NCBI RefSeq assembly: GCF_937616625.2
Contig: NC_065571.1
Span: 51,631,651-51,695,650, forward strand
Reading direction: 5' to 3'
DNA length: 64,000 nucleotides
Origin: Mercurialis annua
Lineage: Eukaryota; Streptophyta; Magnoliopsida; Malpighiales; Euphorbiaceae
A model generated the notes under the pieces. That model ran no database searches. It had not been told where the DNA came from and worked only from the letters and a program-made list of their open reading frames with translations. A program made the position numbers and the translations under genes. Shown in pieces: positions 20,149 to 63,258 of the stretch. Positions within the stretch are counted from its first letter, which is position 1. The number at the start of each line of letters is the position of its first letter.

Positions 20149-20171
20149 TTGGTAAGACCATGAGGTGTTAT

Positions 20172-20519
20172 TGTACAAATATAAGCCCAAGTTTTGAGAA
20201 GCCCAAGTTTTGAGCCCATCTAGTCTGAGTCCATCATAAGCCTTCCATGCTCCTCCCATCAGCTGATCTTCTCTCTCTGCACAGTTGGCATCTTTTCTGT
20301 TATTGCTGCGTTCAATTCTGTGATGGAAATAGCTGACACCACAAGATTCCTTTTCTTGTTTTCTGTACATTCCTTTTGTAACCTTTTAGGTAGCTGAGCT
20401 GGGCGTTTTCTTATTGGTTAGTTGTATATATATAGCCCCATCCTTTTTTGTAATCAGCAGTGAATAATAATTAAAAATACAGAGCTTTCACTCTCCTTTT
20501 ACCTTTATTATTTTGTTCA
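20172..20519 (+). repeat. 5' LTR
   Basis: 348 bp, starting TGTAC and ending GTTCA (TG...CA). Contains a direct repeat 'aagcccaagttttgag' near its start and a TATA-like 'gtatatatatag' at 20424-20435, the likely promoter. It differs from the 3' LTR only in cagcag versus caacag. Confidence 0.97.
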
Positions 20520-20531
20520 TGGTATCAGAGC
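20520..20531 (+). other. Primer binding site
   Basis: TGGTATCAGAGC directly abuts the 5' LTR. It is complementary to the 3' end of plant initiator tRNA-Met, the usual copia primer. Confidence 0.92.
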
Positions 20532-20553
20532 ATCTCTGATCCAATACTTACTA

Positions 20554-23500
20554 ATGGCTGAAACTTACAATCCCAATGGCGATCCTTACCATCTTCAAGG
20601 ATCTGACCATCCGGGAATGGTGCTTGTTACTGCACCATTAACTGGAAACAACTATCTTACTTGGAGCAGATCTATGAAGATTGCTCTTGGAGCTAAGTTC
20701 AAACTTGGTTTTGTTGATGGCAGATTGCCCATACCTGAAGAAGATGATGAAAAATACGAGTTCTGGACAAGAGCTAATTACATGGTGACTTCATGGATTC
20801 TGAATTCCATGTCTAAAGAAATAGTGGATGGTTTTTTGTACACCACCACTGCTAAAGAACTCTGGGAAGAGATCTCTGAGAGATATGGTGAAAGTAATGG
20901 GCCCTTGCTCTACCAGATTCAAAGGGAAATTGCATCTGTTAACCAAGGTAATGATTGTGTTGCAAAATACTATACCAGACTTAAACGTCTGTGGGATGAA
21001 TTTGCTTGTCTTATGTCACTTCCACCATGCACTTGTGGTGCTGCTAAAGCCATTACAGATCTATATTCTATGAACAGATTGATGCAATTTCTTATGGGTT
21101 TGAATGATTGCTTTGACCATACAAGGAATCAAATTCTTGTTATGGATCCCTTGCCTACTGTGAACAAAGCTTATTCTATGCTTCTTAGTGTTGAGAAACA
21201 AAGAGAGGTTAATGTCAGTTATAATGAGAAAGTAGAGGTTACAGGGTTGTTTGCTAAGGGCCAGAACTATTATAAAAGGGATAATCAATCAAAGACTGGA
21301 GCAAAAAGGAAAGACAAAGAGAACAAATTCTGTGACCACTGCAGAACCAAAGGTCATGAAAGGGATACTTGTTTCAAGTTACATGGAGTGCCAGATTGGT
21401 ATAAGGAGCTGAGGGAGCAACAAAAGAAGGAGGGCACCAAAGTCATGGCAAATATAGCAGAATCTCCTCTTGATTATGAAACAGTTAGTGAGACTAAAGG
21501 TGAAAAACATACTGAATTGGCAAATTTGGTTCAGCAAGAATTGATGAAGATCATGAAAGATGGTAACTATGCTAATTTTGCTAGCAGTTTTTCAGGTAAC
21601 CCTTCTACTTATGTTTTTGCCTTGAATGTTGCTACTACTGATATGCTTGGTGTGAATTCTTGGATTCTTGACACTGGTGCCACTAACCATATGTCTGGAA
21701 TTAAAACCATTTTTAATGATCTTAAGCCTCCTGGAAAACCTATACCAGTTTATCTTCCTGATGGTTCTGTTAAAACTGTGGATAGTGTGGGAAACATTAA
21801 ACTCTCTGATAGGATTAATCTGAACCAGGCTCTCTATATCCCTAGCTTCAAATTTAACCTACTCTCTGTAAATAAGCTTACTAAATCTGCCAAAATAAAA
21901 TGCATTTTCACCCCTGATGCTTGTATTTTACAGGACCTGCAGACTAAAGAAGTTATGGCAGTAGGACAAACTTTAGGAAGTCTCTACATCTTGGATATTG
22001 CTAGTTTCCAGTCTGTTCAACAAAAATTACAGATTTCTCAATTAAGTTTTAATGTTTTGAATTGTAATGATCAAGTTTCTTGTAATGATCAAATTTCTAT
22101 TAATGAAAACAATATTTCCTCAGAAACTCATCTCTGGCATAATAGACTTGGACATTGTCCTACTGATGTTTTAAAACACATTAAAATTCTGAGCAGAAAT
22201 AAATTTAAAGACATTCATGAATGTGCTGTTTGTCACAAAGCTAAACAACAAAGAATCCCTTTTCCTGTCAGCCACACAAAATCCACAAAAATCTTTGAAT
22301 TAATTCATCTAGATGTTTGGGGACCTTATCATCAACAATCCATTGAAGGAACCAAGTATTTTTTAACCATTGTTGATGATCACTCAAAAGCAACATGGAC
22401 TTATCTTATGATCCATAAAAGCCAAGCTACTTCAATACTCATCAACTTCTCTAATATGGTCCAAACTCAATTCAATACTGACATCAAAATTGTCAGAAGT
22501 GACAATGGCACTGAATTCACAAATAATGAACTCCAAACTTATCTATCCAACAAAGGAATAATACATCAAAAATCATGTCCCTACACTCCCCAACAAAATG
22601 GAGTTGTAGAAAGAAAGCATAAACATTTGCTGCAAGTTGCTAGAGCTTTAATGTTCCAATCTGGACTACCAAAAAAATTCTGGGGTTCATCTATTTTAAT
22701 GGCAACTTACATCATAAACAGAACTCCTTCTGCCATTATCTCCTGGAAATCTCCCATAGAAATACTTTTCTCCAAAATCCCTGATTACACCAATCTCAAA
22801 ACTTTTGGTTCCCTCTGCTATGTGACAAACACCATTCCTCACAAAGATAAATTTAGCACAAGAGCTTTTACATGTGTTTTTATAGGTTATAACCCTGCTC
22901 AGAAAGCTTACAAACTTTATGATTTTGAAAATCACAAAATTCTCATTTCCAGAGATGTCAAATTTTATGAATCCATTTTTCCTTATAAGACTGAATCTAA
23001 CACTATCAAAGATGTAGATACTCAGGTCCTGCCCTTACCTTTTGATGACATTTCTGATACCTTTGTTCCTGAACCTATTCATACTGCTACTGATCAAACT
23101 CAGCCTACACAACCTGATCTTCCTACTACTTCTATCATGCCCACCAAACATAGTACTAGAACCAAATCCAAACCTGCCTGGATGTCAGACTATGTGACCA
23201 ACTTAGCCCTTATTCCTACCACCAAATCTTGTGCATCATACACACCACCTACTTTTCCTTACATACCTAGCCCTGTGCTCAGTCCTACATATCTGTCTTT
23301 TCTTGCAAATGTTTCTCATATTCCTGAACCTCACACCTATCACCAAGCTATATCTGATCCTCACTGGATAACTGCTATGAATGAAGAAATTACTGCCCTT
23401 GAAACAAACAACACTTGGGAGCTCACCAAGCTACCTGCTGATAAGAAAGCCATAGGCTCTAAATGGATTTTTAAGACTAAGCACAAGGCAGATGGATCCA

Positions 23501-24864
23501 TTGATAGATTCAAAGCCAGAGTTGTGGCAAAGGGTTTCACTCAGATTGAAGGGGTTGATTATTTTGAAAGTTTCTCTCCTGTTGCTAAGATAGTTACAGT
23601 GAGAATTTTTATTGCATTGGCTAATTCAAAGGGTTGGCCCCTATACCAAGTTGACATAAATAATGCTTTTCTTCATGGCTTTCTTGATGAAGAAGTTTAC
23701 ATGACCCCACCTCTGGGATATACTAAAGCCAAGCCTGGTCAAGTTTGCAAGCTAAAAAGGTCCTTGTATGGACTCAAACAGGCATCAAGACAGTGGAATG
23801 TTGAATTTTCTGCAACAATCACATGTCTTGGTTTTCAGCAGTCTCCTCATGATCACTGCCTGTTCATCAAAAGTACTGACACTTCTCTTACTGCTCTTCT
23901 CATTTATGTTGATGATGTTCTCATAACAGGTACATCAGAATCTGAAATTGATTCTGTTAAGAAGCATCTTGATACAATTTTCACTATCAAAGATCTTGGT
24001 CATGCTAGATATTTTCTTGGCATTGAAATTGCAAGAGGCCCTTCTGGAATTACTATGAATCAAAAGAAGTATCTCCTGGATATCATTTCAGACACAGGCT
24101 TGCTAGGGGCAAAGCCAGCAAAAATTCCATTTCAAAAGGGTCACAAGCTAGCTGCAAACATGGGGACTCCCCTCCATGAGCCTGATAAATACAGAAGACT
24201 CATTGGCAGACTTCTCTACTTGAATATTACAAGACCTGATATCACTTACTCTGTCCAGCAACTTAGCCAGTATGTGAACACTCCTTGCCAAGCTCACTGG
24301 GATACTGCTCTGCATCTGGTCAAATACTTGAAGGGTTGTCCTTCAACTGATCTATTCTACCCTGCAGACACCGTTCTTGATCTTCATGCCTACAGTGATG
24401 CAGACTGGGGATCTTGTCTTGATACTAGAAAATCCTTGACAGGTTTTTGCATTTTCCTTGGTAACTCTCTCATATCTTGGAAAACTAAGAAACAGACCAC
24501 TGTTTCCAGATCTTCTGCAGAGGCTGAATACAGGAGTCTAGCTGCTTCAGTATGTGAACTGCAGTGGATTTCTTATATTCTACATGATTTCAAGATACCT
24601 GTCACTACACCTATTCCTCTATGGTGTGATAATCGAGCTGTTATCCATATTACAGCCAACCCTGTGTTTCATGAGCGTACGAAGCATTTGGACATTGACT
24701 GTCATCTTGTGAGAAACCTCTTCAAAGAAGGTTTTATTCAACCTCTCCACATTCCTACTCAAGATCAGAAAGCAGACATTTTCACTAAGGCTCTATCTGC
24801 TCCTCAATTCAGCAAGCTTCTCTTCAAGTTGGGATTGCATGATGCTCACCAATCTCCAACTTGA
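20554..24864 (+). CDS. Ty1/copia gag-pol polyprotein, 1436 aa
   Basis: A single open frame with domains in copia order. Gag N-terminus (residues about 15-220) has LTGNNYLTWSRSMKIAL. Zinc knuckle C260-X2-C...H...C (CDHCRTKGHERDTC). Aspartic protease with DTGA at 373-376. GAG-pre-integrase HHCC region from about 527 (HLWHNRLGH). Integrase DDE is D587, D650 and E686 (D-X35-E). Reverse transcriptase spans about 930-1175 with YVDD at 1118-1121. RNase H lies near 1270-1400 (SDADWGS, SSAEAEYRSLA, LWCDNRA). No stop or frameshift interrupts it. Frame starts with MAETYNPNGDPYHLQG, 34 bases after the primer site. The polyprotein would be processed into capsid, protease, integrase and RT-RNase H. Confidence 0.97.
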   Translation: MAETYNPNGDPYHLQGSDHPGMVLVTAPLTGNNYLTWSRSMKIALGAKFKLGFVDGRLPIPEEDDEKYEFWTRANYMVTSWILNSMSKEIVDGFLYTTTAKELWEEISERYGESNGPLLYQIQREIASVNQGNDCVAKYYTRLKRLWDEFACLMSLPPCTCGAAKAITDLYSMNRLMQFLMGLNDCFDHTRNQILVMDPLPTVNKAYSMLLSVEKQREVNVSYNEKVEVTGLFAKGQNYYKRDNQSKTGAKRKDKENKFCDHCRTKGHERDTCFKLHGVPDWYKELREQQKKEGTKVMANIAESPLDYETVSETKGEKHTELANLVQQELMKIMKDGNYANFASSFSGNPSTYVFALNVATTDMLGVNSWILDTGATNHMSGIKTIFNDLKPPGKPIPVYLPDGSVKTVDSVGNIKLSDRINLNQALYIPSFKFNLLSVNKLTKSAKIKCIFTPDACILQDLQTKEVMAVGQTLGSLYILDIASFQSVQQKLQISQLSFNVLNCNDQVSCNDQISINENNISSETHLWHNRLGHCPTDVLKHIKILSRNKFKDIHECAVCHKAKQQRIPFPVSHTKSTKIFELIHLDVWGPYHQQSIEGTKYFLTIVDDHSKATWTYLMIHKSQATSILINFSNMVQTQFNTDIKIVRSDNGTEFTNNELQTYLSNKGIIHQKSCPYTPQQNGVVERKHKHLLQVARALMFQSGLPKKFWGSSILMATYIINRTPSAIISWKSPIEILFSKIPDYTNLKTFGSLCYVTNTIPHKDKFSTRAFTCVFIGYNPAQKAYKLYDFENHKILISRDVKFYESIFPYKTESNTIKDVDTQVLPLPFDDISDTFVPEPIHTATDQTQPTQPDLPTTSIMPTKHSTRTKSKPAWMSDYVTNLALIPTTKSCASYTPPTFPYIPSPVLSPTYLSFLANVSHIPEPHTYHQAISDPHWITAMNEEITALETNNTWELTKLPADKKAIGSKWIFKTKHKADGSIDRFKARVVAKGFTQIEGVDYFESFSPVAKIVTVRIFIALANSKGWPLYQVDINNAFLHGFLDEEVYMTPPLGYTKAKPGQVCKLKRSLYGLKQASRQWNVEFSATITCLGFQQSPHDHCLFIKSTDTSLTALLIYVDDVLITGTSESEIDSVKKHLDTIFTIKDLGHARYFLGIEIARGPSGITMNQKKYLLDIISDTGLLGAKPAKIPFQKGHKLAANMGTPLHEPDKYRRLIGRLLYLNITRPDITYSVQQLSQYVNTPCQAHWDTALHLVKYLKGCPSTDLFYPADTVLDLHAYSDADWGSCLDTRKSLTGFCIFLGNSLISWKTKKQTTVSRSSAEAEYRSLAASVCELQWISYILHDFKIPVTTPIPLWCDNRAVIHITANPVFHERTKHLDIDCHLVRNLFKEGFIQPLHIPTQDQKADIFTKALSAPQFSKLLFKLGLHDAHQSPT

Positions 24865-24872
24865 GGAGGGGA
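24862..24872 (+). other. Polypurine tract
   Basis: tgaggagggga lies immediately before the 3' LTR, overlapping the stop codon of the polyprotein. It is the site of plus-strand priming. Confidence 0.88.
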
Positions 24873-25220
24873 TGTACAAATATAAGCCCAAGTTTTGAGA
24901 AGCCCAAGTTTTGAGCCCATCTAGTCTGAGTCCATCATAAGCCTTCCATGCTCCTCCCATCAGCTGATCTTCTCTCTCTGCACAGTTGGCATCTTTTCTG
25001 TTATTGCTGCGTTCAATTCTGTGATGGAAATAGCTGACACCACAAGATTCCTTTTCTTGTTTTCTGTACATTCCTTTTGTAACCTTTTAGGTAGCTGAGC
25101 TGGGCGTTTTCTTATTGGTTAGTTGTATATATATAGCCCCATCCTTTTTTGTAATCAACAGTGAATAATAATTAAAAATACAGAGCTTTCACTCTCCTTT
25201 TACCTTTATTATTTTGTTCA
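24873..25220 (+). repeat. 3' LTR
   Basis: 348 bp, one substitution from the 5' LTR, followed by target duplication GTTAT. Confidence 0.97.
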
Positions 25221-33006: not shown

Positions 33007-33236
33007 CAACTACACTAGAAATTATAATTTATTTTCAAATAATTTTATTTAGGTACACCACTATATCTCTAATACTGGTATGTTCAAAATGGGTCTAGTT
33101 AAATTTTTGTGTCTTATTTTGTTTAATAAGAATTAAAAAAAATAATTCAAATCACTTAAACCTGGTATAATTTGGTAAGTTTTAAAAAATTATAACTTTT
33201 CCAAAAATAGCATTTATCTTTTTATTATTATTATTA

Positions 33237-33462
33237 GGGAAAAGGGTCATCCAGGCCCTTAACGTTTGGGGGTGGATCAGTTGGGCCCTTAACGTCACGA
33301 AAGGTGCATCCAGGCCCTCAATCTCATGCAAAACGGACAACCGTGCCCCTTAACTTAACACCGTTCCTCTCTGACTCTAACGGCACGTCCAAATCCTACG
33401 TGGCACTTCTTTTTACCGTTGTGAATTAATTACGTGGCATTTATTTTGCCACCTACCCATCT
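33237..33462 (+). repeat. MULE left terminal inverted repeat
   Basis: Starts gggaaaagggtcatccagg and ends in 'gccacctacccatct'. Contains 'cctacgtggcac' and 'attacgtggcat', which carry ACGT cores that could act as regulatory sites. Confidence 0.95.
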
Positions 33463-33679
33463 CAGATGGGTCAAATCACTTCAGACCCATATCCCCAATT
33501 AGAAAAGTTAGGGTTTTTAATATGAAAAAAACGATTAACCCCTTTCTTCTCCCCAACCCTTTGATTTTCCATCCATTAACCACATGATCTTCCAGCAATC
33601 TTCGATTTCCTTTCCAGTAACTACAAATCTTTGATTTTCTGGCGATTTTGTACTCCTCGCTTTCCTCTGCAACGTTCAG

Positions 33680-33982
33680 GTATGCTTCAAGTTTTTGCTG
33701 TAAGTTTTTCCTCGTTTTCTTAATGGGTATCTGGATTTTGGGATTTAACAGTTGGATAAGCTCTATCTACTGATGTTAATGATGGGATTTTGTACTGATG
33801 TATCCTATATTTACATATGATCTGCATTTTGGCAGTTTGTGTATCAATGTTTGTGTTTGTCTTGTTGAGTTGTATGTTATTATTAGGTTAGTGGTCCATG
33901 CTAAATGTGATGTATGTGTTTGTCTTGCTGTGTTGTATGTAATTATGGCAGTTTGTTGAGTTAGTGAATTTTGTTTTTGCAG
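33680..33982 (+). other. Likely 5' UTR intron of the MULE transposase gene
   Basis: The donor in 'aacgttcag|gtatgc' and the acceptor in 'tttttgcag|catggg' place a 303-bp intron ending one base before the transposase ATG. 5' UTR introns are common in plant genes. Inferred from splice consensus only. Confidence 0.6.
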
Positions 33983-33983
33983 C

Positions 33984-36900
33984 ATGGGTGAAGTAATTGA
34001 TGTGCATTTCAATTTTGGTGGAACATGGACAGTTGACCCTACATTAGATTATGTGAATGGTGATATAGAGACCAAATTTAACTTTGACTCAGATTACCTA
34101 AATATTAGGAAAATTAAGGATAAGTACATACATGATTTAGGCTATGCTACTGTGCACAACATTTACTTTTTACAGCCTGGGAGGGATTTTAGTAATGGAT
34201 TGATGTTAGTGGCCAATGATGACTCAATTAGGACAATACTGAACTACATTAGGTATGTTTCTTGGAAGAATGAGATTTCCATTTATGCTACTCAAAATTC
34301 AAGTGAGCCTGTTTTTGAGAATACACCAATCCCCATAGCAGTGGACAGACCAAACATAGACCCAGGGCTGGAAAGAGAGGCAGATCAAGCCAATGTGGAA
34401 GAGGTTGATGAAGAGGGGGTCCAAGGAGAGGGAAGTGTAGAAAATGATAATATAGAAGAGGATTGTGTTGATCTCAGTGGGGAAGAGGTTAATGAAGATG
34501 TTAGTGAACATGGTTGTGAGGTTGAAGAGGATAGTACTGATTCTAGTGAGAGTACATATTCAGGGGAAAGTGAGTCAGAATGTCATAGGGACAGTGATAG
34601 TGACCTTGAATCAGAGGGTGTTTCTTACAATGAACCAGAAGGTGCTCCAATTCTTCAGCTAGGCATGACTTTTGCAGATGCAAAAGAGGCAAGGGAAGCC
34701 TTAGCTAAGTATACAGTGGCTGTGGGCAGAAGGTTAAAACTAAACCCTAATGAACCAGGCCGTATCATAGCTAAGTGTGTCACAGGTCAGAATTGTGACT
34801 TCCTGGTGTTCATGTCAAAGGAGGGAAAAAACCCAGGTTTGCTAGTTAGAACCCTGCAACTAGAGCATAAATGCTACAGAACCTTCAAGAATCCAATAGT
34901 GACAGCTATCTTTCTAGCAAACCACTTTAGACCCTTAATCTGCAAAAATCCTGAGACTACTGTTAAGGAGCTTATGAACCTTGTTGAGCTGCAACTGAAA
35001 GTGAAGGTTTCATACATAATGTGCAAGAGAGCTAAGAGATTGATTAAAGAGGAATTAGATGGAAGCTATGTGAAAGAGTTTCATTGCTTGGAAGCTTATG
35101 CAGCAGCCCTAAAAAGGTCAAATCCTGGGACCACAGCAGATATACAGCTTTGCAGGAAGAGCTTGAAAGATGGAAAAAGAGTCTTCAGGCGTATGTTCAT
35201 ATGCTTTGCAGCATGTAAGCAAGGCTGCAAGGCTGGATGCAGACCTTTCATTGGGCTTGATGGATGCTTCTTGAAGAGTCCATGCAAGGGACAACTGCTG
35301 GCAGCAATTGGGAAGGATGCTGATGATCAGATGTACCCAATAGCCTGGGGTGTCATAGATACTGAAAACACAACAAACTGGAAATGGTTTTTACAACATT
35401 TGGTTCAAGAGCTTGACCTTGGTGATGGAGCAGAAATTACCTTAATATCTGACATGCAAAAGGTTAGTAGTTGTTAACAAGTAAATTAGGAGTTCATTGC
35501 ATGTCTAATAAATTAATGTCTGACAGTTAGTGTATTTGTTGCAGGGACTTATTAAAGCTGTCAAAGAACTTCTTCCAACTGCTGAACATAGGTGGTGTGC
35601 AAGGCACATTTGGGCAAACTGGGCAAAAAAATGGGGAGGAGGTCAGTTTCAAAAACAATTCTGGATTTGTGCATGGAGTAGCTATGAGGAAGAGTTTGTT
35701 GATCAGCTGAATAAAATGGGACAAATCAGCAAAAAGGCTGCAGAGGACTTAGTATGGTATCCCCCAAACAACTGGTGTCGAGCATATTTCAGTAATAGGT
35801 GCAAGTCAATGACTGTAGATAATAACATTACTGAGTGCTTTAACTCTTGGATTAAGGATGCCAGATATAAACCAATTATCAGCATGCTTGAGGACATTAG
35901 ACTTCAAGTGATGAACAGAATAGCTGATAAGAAGAATCAGGCAAGAACTTGGTTCAATGAATGGAGTCCATCAAGTATGAAGTTCTTCCATGACAACAAA
36001 GACATTGCAATGGGCTGTAAAGCAGTGTTTAATGGAGACCATGGTTTTGAAATTGGGGAAGGGGATGATAAACATACAGTCTTTTTAGACAAGAAAGTTT
36101 GTACCTGCAGGGTTTGGGATCTCACTGGGATCCCATGCTCACATGCCATCTGTGCAATTCAGCATTTGAATGGGGAGCCTATCAATGAAGTCTCAGAATA
36201 TTACCATAGGTCTAAGTATGAAGCTTGTTATAGCTTCACTATGCAACCAGTACCTGGGAAGAGGTTTATGAGAGTGGATGAGTACCTGCCCATAGAACCT
36301 CCAGAAGTGAAAAAACTCCCTGGAAGACCAAGAAAAAGGCGCATCAGAAATGCTAATGAACCAAACCCTTCATCTGGAAGTGGAAGATTGGGGAGAAGAG
36401 GCCAGAAGCAGAGATGCAGGCATTGTCATGAAGAAGGGCACAATAAAAAGTCTTGCAAGAAAAGGGTAACTTTTGTGACTTTCTGTCCATTTTGTGTATT
36501 TTTACAGTTTATGCAGTTTGTTGTTCATTTTGTGTTGTTTGTGTTTATTTTGTACAGTGTGTTCAGTTTGTGTTCAATTTGTGTAGTTTTTGTTCATTTT
36601 GTGCAATTTGTGCAGTTTGTGCAATTTGTGCAGTTTGTGCAGTGTGTTCAGTTTGTGCAATTTGTGTAGTTTTTGTTCATTTTGTGCAATTTGTGTAGTT
36701 TTTCTGCAGTTTGTGTAGTGTGTGCAGTTTGTGCAGTGTGTGCAGTGTGTGTAGTTTGTGTGCAGTTTGTGTGCAGTTTGTGAAATTTGTGACTTTGAGT
36801 ATTGCAGGGCCAAACAAGCACATCAGAGAATGGATTCCAGCAGTCTCAGTCAGCAAGTAGCATGCCTGAACCCAGTGAAGCTTCTCAAATAACTCAGGCT

Positions 36901-37488
36901 TCTCAAACCACCCAAGTTTCTCAAACAACTCAGCCTTCTCAAACCACCCAAGCTTCTCGAACAACCCATGCTTCTCAAACCACCCAATCTTTTAGGAGAC
37001 CAATAGTTGGAGGTGGATGCTTTTATGATCCTGTAACTGGACAAACTGTTTTGCATGTAAGCTTATAAAGTTTTTTATTTTCACTAGATAGTATTAGTTT
37101 GCCTTCTTGGTGTAAAACAACTAATGCCTTGTACTTGCTTGTTTATGTGGAGCAGCCTGGTATGTTAGGGGAACAACACATAGCCTCTGAAACTCCAATG
37201 GTTTCAGGAAGTTGCATGACCACTGAAGATCCTAATGTGAGGTTCTCAATCCCAAATGAGACCATCATTAGAAGATCATCCGCAAAACAGTCAACTGGTA
37301 TTACTCCAAGAAGCATCAGTTTTAGAGGATCTGGATCTCATGTTAGGTATGCTGTTGACTTACCATTTAAGCCAAGAGGAGGTCTTAAATGGAAAGGTGC
37401 ACCTGCTGTCACTGGCTCACAACTGACCAAAGAAGCTCATGCAAAAAAGAAAGGAAAAGGCAACAATGATGCTGCAACTACAAGCTGA
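33984..37488 (+). CDS. MULE (MuDR-type) transposase, 993 aa
   Basis: Catalyses cut-and-paste transposition of the element. Four exons: 33984-35462, 35545-36465, 36808-37056 and 37156-37488, all phase 0. Domains in order: an N-terminal PB1-like region (1-100, MGEVIDVHFNFGGTW), an acidic Glu/Ser/Asp stretch (about 130-215), a MuDR DNA-binding domain (about 220-385, LGMTFADAKEAREALAKY), and a MULE transposase core. The catalytic triad is inferred as D426 (GLDGCFLK), D490 (SDMQKGL) and E590 (NNITECFN). Then follow a SWIM zinc finger from C679 (CTCRVWDLTGIPCSH), a GRPRKRR basic patch, a zinc knuckle at 784 (CRHCHEEGHNKKSC) and six or seven SQTTQ-type repeats (about 825-860). No stops or frameshifts are present, so it appears functional. 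Confidence 0.93.
36466..36807 (+). repeat. TTTGTGCAG minisatellite filling intron 2 of the transposase gene
   Basis: A 342-bp intron made almost wholly of 9-12-bp units such as tttgtgcag and tttgtgtag. The true acceptor 'gagtattgcag' is at its end. Each unit itself resembles a 3' splice site (pyrimidine-biased run, then CAG). Reading through without splicing gives a VQFVQF repeat and then a stop at 36669. Confidence 0.85.
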
Positions 37489-38022
37489 AGTTATATGTGA
37501 TTTTTTGGTATTATTTTTATAAGTTCATTAGGAACTTGTTAAGGCTTTAAACTCTGCCTCTTATGTAAATTTTTTGTAAGTTCCATGGGAACTTGTGAAG
37601 GCTTTAAACTCTGCCTCTTAGGTTAATTTTTTGTAAGTTCTTTAGGAGCTTGTTATGGCTAAAAACTCTGCCAATTAGGTATATTTTTGTAAGTTCCTTA
37701 GGAACTTCTTATGTTGGCTTTGAACTCTGCCAATTGGAAGTTATTCAGGAATTTGTTGATGGCAAGAATGCCTTGTTAATGAATGGTATTACTGGTTAGT
37801 GAATGAAAATGTTGTGCATCAATTTGTGCTCTCTATTATTTACTGAATGCAAGTGTGGCTTAATGCAAAACAGGGCAGGGATTGCATAACAGGGCATTGC
37901 ATATAATCATTCAATGTCATTGATTGTTCAATTTTGCATTACAGAGCATTACAAATTCATAGATACTTCAAGTTTGCATTACAATTCATATGACATTCAC
38001 CTTCCAAATTAATACAACCTAT
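37489..38022. other. Region between the convergent MULE genes
   Basis: Four imperfect tandem copies of a unit of roughly 70 bp containing 'gtaagttc' and 'aaactctgcc' (about 37500-37740) form the 3' end of the transposase gene. The rest is shared 3' flank. No further gene was found. Confidence 0.7.
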
Positions 38023-38575
38023 TCAACCTAAAAAATACACAATTAAAACAATCCATGACATTGCAGCTATAGTACATACAATTTTCATTTTCTTTCTAGC
38101 GTCAAGTAGTTCTTCATTTCTTTTCAACTCTGCTTTCTGCACAAGCTTGAATTCCTGCCATAAATTGTCAACATCTTCACCATAATTGTATCTTCTACTA
38201 CACCTTCTATCCATGCTCATTTCTTTTTCAGCTAAGAGATTGTTAATCACATACTTTGCTCTCTCGGTCATTTCATCATCGTGCCATTTGAAGAAATTGC
38301 AGCCCCCAGTCTAACCATCAAACAATCATGAAACCTCAGTTATAGCCAAAAATGAGAAAAGGGTAACTAGGCATAACCATACTAACACTAAGACTTACCT
38401 TATAATTTATGCAACCATGAAATCTCCGTCCAGGGTTTTTCTCGGTCCAGGCTGTGTACAAAGGAGCAACACGAGATCCTGGGCATCTACAAAATCGAGC
38501 TTCACTTTCACAGATGCACTCCATGTCGCCGTGTCTTTGCCGAATCCTTGCTGAAGAAGACGAAGATGTTGGCAT
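38023..38575 (-). CDS. GRF-type zinc-finger protein with C-terminal membrane segment, second MULE gene
   Basis: Two exons: 38399-38575 and 38023-38310, encoding 154 residues. Residues 29-72 form a GRF zinc finger with candidate zinc ligands C29/C31, C55 and C63 and the signature NPGRRFHGC followed by GGCNFFKWHDDE. After it comes a charged, probably coiled-coil helix (about 73-130, KLVQKAELKRNEELLDAR by inspection EFKLVQKAELKRNEELL) and a hydrophobic C-terminal tail of about 20 residues (KIVCTIAAMSWIVLIVYFLG). GRF fingers bind single-stranded nucleic acid in other proteins. The start codon is 98 bp from the right TIR, so the TIR is its likely promoter. Its position and direction equal mudrB of maize MuDR, but no relation to MURB is visible. 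Function in transposition is inferred from location only. Confidence 0.85.
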
Positions 38576-38673
38576 GATGATTTTAGGGGTTCAATTTCAG
38601 GGATTCGATTTTAGGGCTTCAATTTTAGGTTTTTGGTTTTAGGAATTAGAATTTGTTGTTATAGGAAGGAAGA

Positions 38674-38900
38674 AGATGGGTAGGTGGCAAAATAAATGCC
38701 ACGTAATTAATTCACAACGGTAAAAAGAAGTGCCACGTAGGATTTGGACGTGCCGTTAGAGTCAGAGAGGAACGATGTTAAGTTAAGGGGCACGGTTGTC
38801 CGTTTTGCATGAGATTGAGGGCCTGGATGCACCTTTCGTGACGTTAAGGGCCCAACTGATCCACCCCCCAAACGTTAAGGGCTTGGATGACCCTTTTCCC
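38674..38900 (-). repeat. MULE right terminal inverted repeat
   Basis: Complement of the left TIR with two substitutions and one extra base in a G run. Confidence 0.95.
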
Positions 38901-38909
38901 TTATTATTA

Positions 38910-41429: not shown

Positions 41430-42230
41430 AAACTAACCTGATATGAACCTGATGTGAACTTACATCAATAAAACTATTTTTTTTAATAAAATTTGTCTTG
41501 CTACTCTTTATAATCTTAAGTGACATTTTATATAGAGAGAATTTTGAGATTTAGTGATATATAAATTGAAATCTCTTTTAAGTGAGATGTATTTGACAGT
41601 TCATAACACCCAAAATCAACCGGATGTGAACCAAATGTAAACCTATATCAAATGAACTAACCTAATTCATTTTTTAGTAAAATTTATCTTATTACTCTTT
41701 ACAATCTTAAATGATATTTTATATAGAGGGAATTTTGAGATTTAATGTAATAAAAAATTGAATATCTCTTTTAAGTGAAATATATTTGACAGTCTATAAA
41801 ACCAAAAATCAACCTGATGTGACCCGAATGTGAACCTATATCAATTGAAATATCTTAATTTAATTTTTAATAAAATTTATCTTACTGCTCTTACAATCTT
41901 AAATTACATTTTATACAGAGAGAATTTTGAGATTTAGTGTAATATATAAATTGAATATCTCTTTTATGTGAAATGTATTTGACAGTTCATAAAACTGAAA
42001 ATCAAACTGATGTGAACTGAATGTGAACCTATATCAAACGAACTACCTAATTCGCTTTTTAATAAAAATTATCTTGCTACTCTTTACAATCTTAAATGAC
42101 ATTTTATATAAAGAGAATTTTTAGATTTAGATTAATATACAAATTGAATATCTCTTTTAAATAAAATGTATTTGACAGTTTATAAAACCAAAAATCAACA
42201 TCATATGAACCAGATATTTTTTTCAAATAA
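41430..42230. repeat. Tandem array of about 190-bp units in element 1
   Basis: Four to five imperfect units with landmarks 'ctcttttaagtgagatgtat' at about 41572, then similar at 41768, 41957 and 42147. Each has 'attttatatagag' and 'tgatgtgaac'. The same unit, inverted, is in element 2 (45780-47160). Confidence 0.85.
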
Positions 42231-44140: not shown

Positions 44141-47100
44141 GGGTTTTTTACACAAATCTCCTAAAAGTGCTATGGTGTTTCACTTTTCCCTCACCATTTT
44201 GATTTTGGCAAAAATCTCCTTAAAAAAAATAAATTTTTTCAAGAATCCCTCATAAACTAAAATAGACTGAATAATAGAGAAAGCTGGACAATAATGTCCT
44301 TATAGAAGAAACACGTGAACAACAAACAACAGTTTCTTTTCAAATCAACTACCACAAAATTCTCTCATCTTCAACCTACTAACATTGCCGCCATTGATGA
44401 ACATTTTTCGTCCTTCACCTGAGCTTTTTCGCCATTGAAAGTGAGCTTTTCATTCATTGACAGTGAGCTTTTTTGCCATTGACAGTGTACTTTTCAGCCA
44501 TTGAAAATGAGCTTTTCCTTCCTTCAACTACAAAAGAATTATTACAATAGAGATAATCAATTACTCAAGAACAGGTAAGTTATATACAATTAGCTGTTAT
44601 AATTTATCAATTAGAAACATGTAAAAAGTCAACATTATACAATATAATTTATGAGCTGATTATACATTTGTTGATTTTCAATTTAATTTCAAAAGGACCA
44701 AATTCTGAAATTAGTAAAATTGATATCCAAAATAAGCTTGATTTGAAGTTCTTTACGTTTTAATGTTTATTTTCAGATTCAGATAGCTTTTAATGAGCGA
44801 AGCTTTAACTGATTTTAGATAGATTTACAAATAATTTTTAAAAATCAAGTTAATTTAAGGTTATAAAGATTTCACATCATCAAATTTTTAGATTGATTCA
44901 AAATTAATACAATGAATCTGAATTTCAATAAATCCATATTCTGAATTACATTATAAATTGTTGTACTCTTACCTCTGAATTTCAATTTCTTCAAAGAACC
45001 TAATATTTGGCTCTTTCAAAATGCATATGAATTGTTGTAGGCTTAGCTCTGTTGTTGACATGGAAGAATTCCTTCTTTCTGGTAAAGCCATGTTGTTAGG
45101 AAATAGGGATCTTTTCTTTTGAGAGGTTCAATTAACATAATCAATGTTGATTTTATTCATTCGAGGACATGAGCAACCCTCAGTCATATGCATTAAATTG
45201 TAGTGTCAAAAAAAGGTCAGTATAGTGTTATTTAGTCCGTTGGAGGAAATTTTGTTTCGGCAGACGTTACGAATACGGCAATTCGGTTTGCTCGACCTTA
45301 CAGCAATTCGCGAAGGTACGATTGGTGTCCATTGAAGAGAAGCTTTTTGCGTAAGTGAAGAAGAATATGAGCAATTGATCTTAATTTTGTTGTTTCAGCT
45401 GATTATAAACCTATAAATCAATTAGTTGTTTATATTAATTTTCTTCTATCTTAATTTCATCAATTTTCAGAAGTAATCTAAATATTGCAACGAGACTAAA
45501 GACGGAGACCCGATGGTTGAGTTACTCAATGGTGTTCATACTAAAGATGGAAACCCGGTGTTCCAAAGTAATGAGAAAGAAGTGACTCTTTAAGAAGATC
45601 TAGAGGTTTATCTAATCATTGCAAACCCGAATAGAAGCAACAAGAAGATCAATCAATCAATGGGATAGATCCTATTTAGCTTTGTCGAAATTGTATCATT
45701 TATAGATGGAAGTTAAAATTGTAAGAAATGTATCAATTGCTCTATCTATGTTTTGAAATTGATGTTTCAGTGGAATTAACAAGAGTCGCTAAATTGAATT
45801 AAGATAGTTCAGTTGATATAGGTTCATATCAGGTTCACATCAGGTTGATTATCGGTTTTATGGGCTATCAAATACTTTTGACTTAAAAGAGATATTCAGT
45901 GGGTATATTACAATAAATGTCAAAATTCTCTTTATATAAAATTTCATTTAAGATTGTAAAGAGAAGTAAAATAAATTTGATTAAAAATTGAATTAAAGTA
46001 GTGCAGTTGATATAGGTTCACATCAGGTTCACATCAGGTTGATTTTTGGTTTTGTAGTCTGTCAAATATATTTCACTTAAAAGAGATATTCAATTTGTGA
46101 TTACACTAAATCTCAAAATTCTCTCTATATAAATATCGTTCAAGATTGTAAATAACAGCAAGACAATTTTTATTAAAAATTGAATTAAAATAGTTAAATT
46201 GATATCTGGTTCACATCAGGTTGATTTTCGGTTTTATAAACTGTCAAATATATTTCACTTAAAAGATATTTTTCACTTAAAGGTATATTCAATTTGTGAT
46301 TACACTAAATCTCAAAATTCGCTTTATATAAAATGTCATTTAAAATTATAAAGAATAACAAGACTAATTTTATTAAAAAATGAATTAAGATAGTTCAGTT
46401 GATATGGGTTCACATCCAGTTCATATCAAGTTGATTTTTGGTTTTATAGACTGTCAAATATATTTCATTTAAAAGAGATATTCAACTTGTGATTACACTA
46501 AATCTCAAAATTCTCTCTATATAAAATGTGATTTAAGATTGTAAAGAGCTGCAAGACAAATTTTATTAAAAAATTGAATTAGAATAGTTTAGTTGATAGG
46601 TTCACATCAGGTTCACATCAGGTTTATCTTTAGTTTTATAGACTGCCAAATACATTTCAATTAAAAGAGATGTTCAATTCTAATAATAGATTATATCTCA
46701 AAATTCTCTTTATATAAAGTGTCAGATAAAATGTTAAAAGCAGTAAGAAAAAATAAATTAAAAATTGATTACATCGGGTTGATTTTCGGTTTTATAGTCT
46801 GTCAAATACATTTTACTTAAAAGAGATATTCAATTTGTATATTACACTAAATATCAAAATTCTATCTATAATAAAATGTCGTTTAAAATTCTAAAGAGAA
46901 ACAAGACAAATTTTATTTAAAATTGAATTAAGGTGATTCAGTTGATATAAGTTCACATCAGGTTCACATATGGTTTATCTTTGGTTTTATAGACGGTCAA
47001 ATACATTTCAATTAAAAGAGTTATTCAATTTTTATAATAGATTATATATCAAAATTCTCTCCATATAAATGTCAGAAAAGATTGTAAAGAATAGTAAGAC

Positions 47101-48503
47101 AAATTTAATTAAAAATTGAATTAAGGTCACATTAGGTTCACATCAGGTTGATTTTCGCTTTGATATCATCTTCAAGGAAATCTCTATATCCTAGTTTAAA
47201 CACAGAAAGTCCGTGATCACAGCCGCCCACACGTAGTCCAGAATGAGATTGATAAACTCTTTTAGAATGATCAATTGAATTCACATCTTCCCTTACTTCA
47301 ACAATTTTACAATTTTGCGAATATCACCCATCAAATACAACTACTCAAAATTCGCCTCAAATTATTAAAAATTCATTAAATGAACGAGTTCCATATCATC
47401 TGAAATTTTAAAACAAAATCCCCATTATTATTATAATCTTGAAGCAAAAGTAGAACATGTATAATATACATAAATTATGAAAAGGATTAAAACTTGAATC
47501 GAAAAGAGTATAAATTTAGCAGCTTATAAATCAACCAACCTCAAATGCTATGTTTTAAATCAGAATTTTCAAAAAGTAAAGTGATGTTGGTAGAGCATAT
47601 GGCTATTAAACGAATCATTGAGCCAGATGGTTATTAAAATCTGAGAAATGAATCATTGAGCCAAGGAATCAAATAATGAAAAGAAAAACAACTCTAACAA
47701 AAAGCAAAACCAAATTTTAAAAAGCAAAAGCATAACAAAAGCAACACACATATACAGAGAGAGTGAGAAAAGAGAAATGCAAATAGAATTTCAAACTATT
47801 AACAACAAGTTTAAAATAAGCCAACTAAAAACAAAGATTAAAATTAAAATAAACAAAACCCAAATGCAGAACACATCAAAAAATACTTGAAAGAAGAAGA
47901 AGAGATTGATGAGAAAATCATAAGATTTGGGATTTGAAAACAGACCAAAACCTAGGCAAACTCAGGCCAAAAAGAGGAAGAAAGAGGGAAAAGAGGTGGC
48001 AGTGTGAGTTATTTAAGGATTTTTGTCGCCAACACTGGTTTTATCTTCAACACCATACTGCCACAAACAGTGCCACAACCACCGTCACCACAGTTACATC
48101 AGTTGTTTGGGGAGAAACAATTATTTTCACAGAGGAAAATCTTTTAGTCTAGTTATACGCCTTCGATTCGTGCTTGGATAGATTCAGAAAAATCTTCAGA
48201 TCTCCACCATCGCCGCATCGCGGAGCAGCGAGGGAGCGAGTCGCATCGGCGGTCCAGCTACCGACACCGAAAGTCCGGCCACCGGCAGTCCGACCGGCCA
48301 TAAATAAACCAACCCGATACATTTACTCGGTGGTAGAAGTTGTGGGTGTTGGAGAAGAGAAAGTAAGGGTGAAATAGGACTAGAAATATAATGAGGTATA
48401 GATGCAAACTGATTTTAAAAAAAGAGAGATTTTTGCAAAAAAATATTTTCTGAGTCACTAACATAAACTTTTCAAATTTTGGGGTATATGGTGACATTTT
48501 CTC
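44141..48503. mobile_element. MULE-like element 2 of the insertion cluster, 4363 bp
   Basis: Flanked by perfect 9-bp duplication TATACTATT (44132-44140 and 48504-48512). Left end gggttttttacacaaatctc, right end (complement) gagaaaatgtcaccatatac. The interior has an unassigned stretch (44300-45700), the tandem array, then a segment at 47700-48370 ending GC-rich near 48200-48300. No convincing protein was found; short open frames there lack family features. Confidence 0.82.
45780..47160. repeat. Tandem array of about 190-bp units in element 2
   Basis: Seven imperfect units of 157-205 bp, each with 'ggttcacatcaggttgattt' and 'ctgtcaaatatatttcactt'. The landmarks lie at about 45865, 46058, 46240, 46451, 46642, 46799 and 46992. 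It is the reverse complement of the array in element 1. Confidence 0.88.
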
Positions 48504-58895: not shown

Positions 58896-60313
58896 CTAAG
58901 AAGAAGTTGGATGATTATGGATGCCTTCATAGGTTGTTATCACATAACTCGGATCATCTCTATCTCTTTCTACTCTCTTCTTCACTGGACAACCTTCCGC
59001 CGAGCATCGATAATAATTCCTGTTCATTGCACATAAAAATTTAATATTTGACGCAAATGAAAATGCTAAGTGAAACGATATTAATTTCCGAAAAAATATG
59101 TATTTTAAAACAAAATTCTTTTTTTTCAGTAGAATTTCTGAAATATTCTTGAAACATTGTTGATTCCATGGAATGAAATCTCTTATAAACAATTATATAC
59201 TCCTTTCATATATTATATTATGACTTTAAATTTTATCGGTCCTGATTCAATATTGTTATATTAATTGTCAAATTTATTTATGTTTATATTATTACTGACA
59301 TGACGCAATGTGACACGATGTTATATTGATTTAGTAAGCTAAATTTTATACATGTAGACGTATAATATAGTATTGTGTCAGCTCTAAAACTACGTTTAAT
59401 TCATAAAATAGGTTCCGAAATATAATAGCTATTTTTTATTTTAATTCATGGAATTGCTGTTTCATAATTTTGTGGAATAAATATTCCTCTTTAAAAAAAG
59501 AATGACTATTCTATTTGTTAGAAATAGCTATTTCATTTCGAGTCTATTCCACAGACTAAATATAGTCTAGTTAAATGAGCTATGGACCAATAAAATATTT
59601 GCGGATATTTTGATAACCTGACTTTTATTTTTATTATAACGGGAGGTTACTCATTCATTTTCAGACAAAATTCTACTTACGTGGCAATATAAAATTGTTT
59701 GCAATCCAATTTTGCCACATAAGAATGCCAGATAAATAAAACAACAACAAAAAAAATATAAAAGATCATATCATTGAAAAGAAAGACACATAAAAAAAAA
59801 TGATATACGAAGGATATACCATTAACTTTCCTTTACTTTACAACTTGTAACAACAATAAACTAAAGTTGATTGAATTAGCAAAATAGAGCAAATAAAACG
59901 TTAGGTTATTGAAGTGTAACCCACCAAACTGGCAAAGTTCAAAATATGACGTTGTTGATAAATAAATTTGTTTTGGGATATATGTACCTTGGATTAGGGC
60001 TGTTCTTCACCATCTTCTTGCCATATTTCCTCCACTTGAATCCATCATCCAGTATCTCAATTTCCGACCGAGTCTTGAATGCCACTCTCTCTTTAATTTC
60101 TTGCTTCTTCTCCCTCTCATCTCCACCCGCATCACCGCCTGATTCGCCGATCACCTGAGCTCGATAAACCGGAATTTCGGCACTAGAATTAACCGAAAGA
60201 AGAGAAGTTTGGTAATGATCATCATTCTGTATCCACTCATCAAACATCAACAATTCCGACAGCTCAAAATTTGTCAAGTCACCATAATCACTCTCTTGAG
60301 AGCCAACAGACAT
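58896..60313 (-). CDS. WRKY50: WRKY50-like transcription factor (WRKYGKK, group IIc), copy A, 149 aa
   Basis: Nuclear DNA-binding factor. AtWRKY50/51, which share the WRKYGKK variant, act in salicylate/jasmonate defence signalling (family knowledge). Two exons: 59988-60313 and 58896-59019. The intron of 968 bp splits the arginine after NSPNP, the conserved WRKY intron site. The domain is WRKYGKK at 94-100, then zinc finger C114-X4-C119-X23-H143-X-H145. The K in place of Q in WRKYGQK is known to change W-box preference. Short acidic N-terminus ([17 protein letters not shown]). The protein is complete and shorter than AtWRKY50. [15 protein letters not shown] favours WRKY50 over WRKY51. A tandem paralogue lies at 62084-63258. 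Confidence 0.93.
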
Positions 60314-62083: not shown

Positions 62084-63258
62084 TTAATAGGAAGTTGGAT
62101 GATTATGGATGCCTTCGTAGGTTGTTATTACATAGCTCAGATCATCTCTATCTCTTTCTACTCTCTTCTTCACCGGACAACCCTCCGCCGAGCATCGGTA
62201 GTAATTCCTGTTCATCACATAATCACTAACATTAAAGGCTAACAGTATAAGTGAAATCAAATTCACAAAAGTTTATGTATTTGAAAATAAAAGGGTAATT
62301 ACTAAACAAATCATGAATATGAACGTGCTTTGCAATTATAATATATAATATAATCTTAAAATTTGGGAATGTCGGATATGATCAATTATAATATTTTGTT
62401 TATAATTAGCATTGTATTAAAAATATTAGGGGGAGTAATTAATTATAAATTAGTGAGAATATGACAACACACATACTTATGAGAGTGTTAAAATTCAACC
62501 ATAATCTAATAATTAGAAATAGTTAATAGGTGGTTGAACCTTTACACTTATAAACTCATTTATATTTGTTTTTCTAAGTAACATAGGATTATCTTTAACA
62601 CATTGAGCAATTTTTAAATAAAAATACTGATTTGAACGGGGTAACAGTATATATTTTGGTGTCTATATAATTAATTTTTATGGTGTTCCGGATGTTTGAA
62701 ATTAATAAAATTTAAAATTTGTGTCTGTAATTGCAAAATATGCTAAAGTTCACAATTAAATTTGCATTTGACCATAAAGTAAATATCATTTCTAAATCAG
62801 TAGAGTTTCTGAAATATCTTTGAAACGAGAAAATGTTGATGAAATGAATCAATAAATTTCTTATTAACAATAATATTCCCCTTTAATGTATATGTATAAA
62901 TTTCTGATAAACAATTACACATATATACATACCTTGGATTAGGGCTATTCTTAACCATCTTCTTGCCATATTTCCTCCACTTGAATCCATCGTCCAGTAT
63001 CTCAATTTCCGACCGAGTCTTGAATGCCACTCTCTCTTTAACTTCCGGCTTCTTCTCCCTCGTATCTCCACCGGCATCACCGCCTGAGTCTCCGATCACC
63101 TGAGCTCGATAAACCGGAATTTCGGTACTAGAATTAACCGAAAGAAGAGACGTTTGGTAATGATCATCATTCTGTATCCATTCATCGAACATCAACAATT
63201 CCGACAGCTCAAAATTTGTCGGGTCGCCATAGTCACTCTCGTGAGAGCCGGCAGACAT
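62084..63258 (-). CDS. WRKY50: WRKY50-like transcription factor (WRKYGKK, group IIc), copy B, 149 aa
   Basis: Tandem paralogue of the gene at 58896-60313, with the same role inferred. Two exons: 62933-63258 and 62084-62207, of exactly the same lengths (326 and 124) as copy A. The intron is 725 bp and splits the same arginine codon. WRKYGKK lies at 94-100, and the C-X4-C-X23-H-X-H finger is intact. The two proteins differ at scattered N-terminal positions (for example [10 protein letters not shown] against [20 protein letters not shown] against [10 protein letters not shown]) and at the last residue (TSY against TSS). The domain differs by one visible change (DDLSY against DDPSY). No damage is seen, so both copies may work. 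Confidence 0.93.

Follow-up and report, generated by a model that had tools for sequence, protein, structure and literature searches.

Does the second gene of a two-gene transposon belong to the transposon, or is it a passenger? We addressed this question for a Mutator-like element (MULE) at positions 33237-38900 of a 64,000-nucleotide stretch of the Mercurialis annua (Euphorbiaceae) genome (the window), which carries, next to its transposase gene, a gene for a GRF zinc-ribbon protein with a hydrophobic C-terminal tail. In maize MuDR, mudrA is accompanied by a convergent mudrB, and the function of the second gene in MuDR-type elements is an old open question. The original prediction for this locus held that the GRF gene is an accessory gene in the mudrB position and not a random capture. 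Its presence throughout a family of elements, purifying selection, its recurrence in other MULE lineages and its co-divergence with the transposase bear this out. Judged from these sequence comparisons, the GRF/helix/tail protein is very probably the product of a second gene that several MULE lineages of the M. annua genome have long carried and that selection has kept.

The window element is intact (Table 1). Its terminal inverted repeats (TIRs), first noted as near-identical 226/227-bp repeats around two genes, align with 98.7% identity across 227 columns, and GGGAAAAGGGTCATCC is found at both element ends. A perfect 9-bp direct repeat, TTATTATTA, forms the target-site duplication (TSD); its target is a TTA run of low complexity and, taken alone, weak evidence. 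The two genes face each other, with the start codon of the GRF gene 98 bp from its TIR edge, a previously reported distance that we obtained again, and that of the transposase ~520 bp from the other. A transposase domain, DDE residues, long TIRs with a 9-bp TSD, and multiple, mobile copies place the element in the MULE superfamily. It is an autonomous-looking two-gene MULE.

The transposase was predicted to be intact, and indeed its four plus-strand exons, separated by phase-compatible GT..AG introns, encode 993 amino acids. Pfam matches are to MULE (PF10551, E 9.8e-18), SWIM (6.5e-8), DBD_Tnp_Mut (PF03108, 1e-6) and PF00872 (3.6e-6). D426, D490 and E590, which we take from motif to be the catalytic DDE residues, are all present, and exon 2 contains what is presumably a CCHC-like knuckle. 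Among four aligned transposases, E590 is found in all four and D426 and D490 in three, the fourth (P0080) having Asn at both positions. Neither element protein matches the plant mobile domain (PMD) or the ULP1 protease domain in Pfam at E<=1. In the left TIR (33256-33353), four CCCTTAA-like motifs are spaced by 30, 29 and 32 bp, about three helical turns, and are candidate transposase-binding repeats.

The GRF gene on the minus strand, likewise predicted as an intact two-exon gene, has a GT..AG intron and encodes 154 amino acids; its exon pair was also recovered by mapping of an annotated relative, P0001. Residues 28-71 form the zinc ribbon (PF06839, E 2.4e-8, 34.4 bits compared with a Pfam cut-off of 25.9), and above the Pfam cut-offs GRF is the only match. 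Cys-29, Cys-31, Cys-55, Cys-63, the G49-R-R-F52 motif and Trp-68 are invariant in 14 aligned GRF sequences. The hydrophobic tail noted earlier is present, with a Kyte-Doolittle mean of 2.44 for its best 17-mer.

We searched the 451-Mb genome (55 contigs) for further copies and found the window TIR matched at 41 or more places (68-100% identical, many of them partial), examining 14 loci around such matches in detail (L009-L022). GRF sequence is found in 10 of the 14 (L009-L015, L017-L019), and the accessory-gene claim, which had been staked on other copies carrying the gene, survives. Transposase matches occur in eight (L009-L015, L017), and all eight keep the two genes in convergent orientation, L013 with an extra transposase match outside its TIRs. 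The GRF start lies 97-101 bp from the TIR edge in eight of the 10 loci (L009, L010, L012-L015, L018, L019); at L011 and L017, only the transposase-end TIR is seen. L009, on another contig, represents a second complete copy, with a 986-amino acid transposase lacking internal stops, conserved splice signals, an open GRF gene and a perfect TSD, TTTTTTTAT. In a TSD check of six elements including that of the window, perfect 9-bp repeats of differing sequence were found in L009, L012, L013 and L014, and an 8-bp repeat only in L018. At L012, 227/227 TIR bases are identical, the TSD is TTTAGAGAA and the GRF gene is open, but the transposase lacks residues 438-800 and hence D490 and E590; by its sequence it is a recently moved element with a GRF gene and an incomplete catalytic domain. 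The L019 GRF gene starts 98 bp inside a family TIR and translates identically to P0001, annotated as LOC126666995. P0001-P0003 and P0079 are paralogues within M. annua and thus do not demonstrate conservation between species.

GRF genes are also found beside other MULE transposases. Querying the genome with the GRF protein returned 158 matches. Merging 150 of them left at least 120 loci, a count that takes in weak and partial ones; 11 of these were among the loci already examined and 109 were new. Five loci were picked by hand to span GRF subfamilies (L023-L027), and 16 were drawn at random from the remaining 104, the first eight of which we examined as 9.9-kb stretches using a panel of 120 MULE transposases. 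Four of the hand-picked loci (L023, L024, L025 and L026) have a convergent MULE transposase beside the GRF gene, partial in L024. L023 corresponds to the annotated pair LOC126660546/LOC126660547 and forms one element with 255-bp TIRs and the TSD TAAAAAATA, its GRF match containing one frame change. The fifth, L027, shows no transposase match, and its open GRF gene is enclosed by 118-bp TIRs of 97% identity. L012 and L027 are, by their gene content, GRF-bearing non-autonomous elements. Six of the eight random loci (L028, L030, L031, L033, L034, L035) contain a MULE transposase within the stretch, less than 5 kb from the GRF match and always convergent (6/6), the L030 match being a C-terminal piece only. 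Controls gave none, in either four random 9.9-kb stretches or five window tiles outside the element (6/8 versus 0/9, Fisher p 0.0023). The proposed comparison of convergence with chance thus favors the association in M. annua, and the suggestion that At4g04775-like GRF genes are mobile copies of such a gene has support inside this one genome. Scans of viral contig and genome contig collections for related loci returned none.

With the window included, both genes are found at 19 loci, convergent in 19/19 and spread over about four transposase groups, which have 33-47% of residues in common between groups in the pairs listed. We compared GRF and transposase distances at 17 of the 19 loci, L015 and L030 being dropped by a coverage rule, and obtained a Mantel r of 0.89, with 0/5000 permutations as high. 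Removal of six members of the window TIR family left 11 loci and an r of 0.85 (0/5000 permutations). Some pairs are disproportionate: the window and L023 are 68% identical in transposase versus 50% in GRF, and L025 and L026 79% versus 48%.

We estimated selection as the ratio of nonsynonymous to synonymous substitution rates (dN/dS) by the Nei-Gojobori method, with the window copy as reference unless stated. Diverged copies with open frames give GRF ratios of 0.27 (L012) and 0.29 (L019) at a dS of 0.67-0.70, near the 0.32 of the L012 transposase, and the comparison of ratios across copies that had been suggested thus comes out for constraint on both genes. Further GRF values are 0.26 for L018 (partial, dS ~1), 0.39 for L013 (1 stop) and 0.35 for L017 (partial, 2 stops), with transposase values of 0.26 for L013 (2 stops) and 0.24 for L017 (5 stops). 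The low ratios of the broken L013 and L017 reflect a long shared past that preceded breakage. In the close damaged copies L010, L011 and L014 (dS <0.25), the GRF ratios are 0.96, 0.79 and 0.55 and those of the transposase 0.80, 0.60 and 0.53: both genes drift together in these broken copies, and decay of the GRF gene beside a conserved transposase, which would have spoken for a passenger, is not what we see. For L009, which is almost identical to the window copy, the GRF ratio is 0.24 on 2 changes and the transposase ratio 0.34 on 19. Divided by region, the window/L012 comparison yields a dN of 0.13 and a dS of 1.45 for the ribbon, 0.14 and 0.39 for the helix, 0.13 and 0.82 for the tail (13 changes only) and 0.46 and 0.57 for residues 1-28, so that ribbon and tail are constrained and the N-terminal part is nearly free. 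A separate lineage comprising L025, L026, L027 and L034 shows GRF ratios of 0.18-0.26 in five diverged pairs, three of which have a dS >1, near saturation; the recent pair L026/L034 gives 1.07 on five changes.

What might such a protein do? Its single hydrophobic segment at the extreme C-terminus is the sequence pattern of a tail-anchored protein. A hydrophobic 17-mer is found within the last 40 residues of 51 of 78 GRF relatives versus 3 of 120 transposases. We read the GRF ends of 13 further loci: eight (L023-L028, L030, L034) reach a plausible natural stop, all with a tail, and the L012 protein has a tail as well; a broken frame or truncation affects those of L017, L031, L033 and L035. Structure models were made of the relatives P0001 and L026 rather than of the spliced window protein. 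The AlphaFold2 model of P0001 (alignment of 30 sequences; mean predicted local distance difference test score 88.9) shows the ribbon followed by a single helix (residues 74-152) that ends in the hydrophobic tail; that of the more distant L026 (score 70.6) shows the ribbon and helices at 85-105 and 109-163. The best PDB matches, by sequence as well as by fold, are the GRF domains of NEIL3 (7OMK, 7JL5), weak as these matches are. NEIL3 itself is an enzyme of DNA repair that has its GRF domains in tandem and lacks a C-terminal tail anchor, and the GRF ribbon of NEIL3/APE2-type proteins binds single-stranded DNA.

The best overall explanation, which we consider likely, is that of a two-gene MULE whose selected second gene probably encodes a membrane-tethered protein with a part in transposition. 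Each TIR would serve as promoter for the adjoining gene. The GRF protein may then be inserted tail-first into the endoplasmic reticulum (ER) or nuclear envelope; sequence pattern and predicted models make membrane tethering probable. The long helix would form a rod-like, probably coiled-coil, dimer and present the ribbon to transposition intermediates, where, by analogy to NEIL3 and APE2, it could bind single-stranded DNA. Action on single-stranded DNA or R-loops in transposition is a role that we propose tentatively. At the nuclear periphery, such a protein may assist the element in excising or reinserting, or give it shelter; a membrane protein encoded by a transposon would be unusual.

The main rival is that the GRF protein is a VANC-like anti-silencing factor, which binds short noncoding motif repeats and keeps the element unmethylated; we consider this unlikely. 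We know of no GRF ribbon that binds double-stranded DNA in a sequence-specific manner, which counts against such a role, and GRF being the sole Pfam match above cut-off, that scan revealed no relation to VANC. The element does contain possible binding arrays, made of the 9-bp repeat CAGTTTGTG in intron 2 and a 57-bp repeat between the genes, and the linker preceding the ribbon (residues 15-28) is variable, with 1 of 14 residues identical to P0001 compared with 34 of 44 in the ribbon. VANC21 and VANC6 recognize motifs of 8-9 bp, which build up into tandem arrays in introns and other noncoding parts, and the available text of PMC5735166, which describes this, mentions no membrane tail of VANC. 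VANDAL elements and the window element are alike as MULEs with an accessory protein and short-motif tandem arrays in noncoding parts, but the window GRF protein has no VANC-like domain match and its family has 227-bp TIRs. VANDALs are called non-TIR MULEs in the accessible part of PMC13317346 and have TIRs of 46-174 bp according to Table 1 of PMC6446971.

Still less probable is an old capture of a host gene, in which an ancestral MULE acquired a GRF/tail gene that hitch-hikes and is kept for the benefit of the plant and not of the transposon. Captured genes are known from MULEs (PMC13317346, available portion), one family copy is annotated as a gene (LOC126666995), and elements without a complete transposase (L012, L027) keep the GRF frame open. 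The gene is nevertheless convergent wherever both genes are found, across the transposase groups; it co-diverges with the transposase, occurs at no fewer than 120 merged loci (weak and partial included) and drifts in close copies whose transposase is broken. A recent Pack-MULE-like capture of a single GRF gene by the window element, suggested by this copy considered alone, is refuted within this genome by the TIR-family presence, purifying selection and other lineages.

Several observations weigh against a selected second gene that encodes a membrane-tethered transposition factor. Four of the 14 TIR-matching loci (L016, L020, L021, L022) contain neither gene, and no MULE match lies near two of the eight random GRF loci (L029, L032), both resembling broken fragments. 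Controls were few, and comparison with the four random stretches alone gives p 0.06. The L015 GRF gene has two stops and still a ratio of 0.42. L012 and L027 keep an open GRF gene without a complete transposase, and the GRF protein thus need not act with the transposase of its own element. At the chosen cut-off, no tail is scored in 27 of the 78 GRF relatives, although some of these 27 are short or partial sequences, and the tail could instead be a hydrophobic dimerization segment. Finally, the NEIL3 matches have Foldseek E values of 0.045-0.17 (none <=0.001) and phmmer E values of 0.002-0.004.

We compared the element to other MULEs with a second gene. It resembles maize MuDR in its long TIRs, 9-bp TSD and convergent transposase and second gene, but here the product of the second gene is a GRF zinc-ribbon protein that ends in a hydrophobic tail, and the likeness to mudrB is one of position, not of sequence comparison. 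The mudrB product has no known function and is apparently required for integration, as stated in the accessible part of PMC6446971. Table 1 of the same source lists an antisense PMD second open reading frame (ORF) for plant MULE groups 42 and 47-50. These PMD clades also place an accessory ORF, often antisense, beside a SWIM-type MULE transposase, but differ in the PMD, for which the two element proteins show no match. That table lists no GRF among its accessory domains, nor does the word occur in its main text as available. Kaonashi (KIU) and other ULP1 MULEs likewise retain an extra gene (PMC13317346), whereas the two element proteins have no ULP1 match; the accessible text of that paper names VANC and ULP1 and does not contain the word GRF. 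Our search of the open-access literature, with subscription papers and Repbase notes outside its scope, found no link between GRF and MULEs, and none is present in the available text of PMC6293580, PMC5413045, PMC11844115 and PMC9743578. In peanut pods, twelve GRF zinc finger genes are among the differentially methylated genes (PMC6293580, available part), consistent with, though no proof of, their being transposon genes. PMC10250235 and PMC4191409 concern DNA repair and demethylation. MULEs with two genes, the second an antisense ORF, are already known, and GRF as the second gene may be new, pending unseen literature or Repbase.

A selected gene in the mudrB position with a recognizable zinc-ribbon fold and an anchor-like tail makes the role of a second gene directly testable. 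More tentative still than the single-stranded DNA role is an extension beyond M. annua, by which GRF/helix/tail proteins would be the true second gene in a considerable share of the MULEs of flowering plants. They would then be ancient cofactors that are kept by selection, tethered to membranes and able to bind single-stranded DNA, with their genes in the place of mudrB. Most of the orphan plant genes called "GRF-type" or "At4g04775-like" would in that case be transposon genes, which could explain where a large class of little-understood zinc-finger genes, at present attributed to the host, comes from, and such elements would perform or control transposition at the ER or nuclear envelope.

Table 1. 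Features of the M. annua MULE, in window coordinates
Feature	Position	Strand	Basis or remark
Left TSD TTATTATTA	33228..33236		Identical to 38901-38909; low-complexity target
Left TIR, CCCTTAA-like motifs x4 (TIR positions 20, 50, 79, 111)	33237..33463	+	TIR alignment, motif scan
Transposase exon 1: N-terminal region, DBD_Tnp_Mut, presumed catalytic D426 and D490	33984..35462	+	Pfam; catalytic assignment by motif, presumed
Transposase exon 2: presumed catalytic E590, SWIM zinc finger, CCHC-like knuckle	35545..36465	+	Pfam; E590 and knuckle presumed
Transposase intron 2, mostly 9-bp CAGTTTGTG tandem array (~30 imperfect copies, 36505-36791)	36466..36807	+	Repeat analysis
Transposase exon 3	36808..37056	+	Splice model
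Transposase exon 4 including stop	37156..37488	+	Splice model; P0079 and P0081 match too
57-bp tandem repeat, 3.5 copies, separating the convergent 3' ends	37514..37711		Repeat analysis
GRF gene exon 2: zinc ribbon end, long helix, C-terminal hydrophobic tail, stop	38023..38310	-	Helix from model of relative P0001
GRF gene exon 1: Ser-rich/basic N-terminus and most of zinc ribbon	38399..38575	-	Pfam, splice model
Right TIR	38674..38900	-	TIR alignment
Right TSD TTATTATTA	38901..38909		Identical to left TSD

The parasite Cuscuta (P0004, P0005, P0088, P0099) ranks high among the relatives of both the GRF protein and the transposase. Its transposases have 54-57% identity over 72-83% of the query, compared with ~45% over 99% for the best Solanum match; horizontal transfer is one possibility suggested by these similarities.

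Elsewhere in the window, arrays of a ~193-bp repeat lie at 41479-42217 and 45802-47141 in inverted orientation, ~3.6 kb apart, and are perhaps a terminal-repeat element; between them we found no ORF of >=110 amino acids. A retrotransposon at 20161-25161, which we take to be Copia-like, contains one open frame of 1466 amino acids and is probably young, since its flanking 300-bp repeats are 98% identical. A tandem pair of reading frames at 59978-60277 and 62923-63222, presumably WRKY-like, is 94% identical in DNA.

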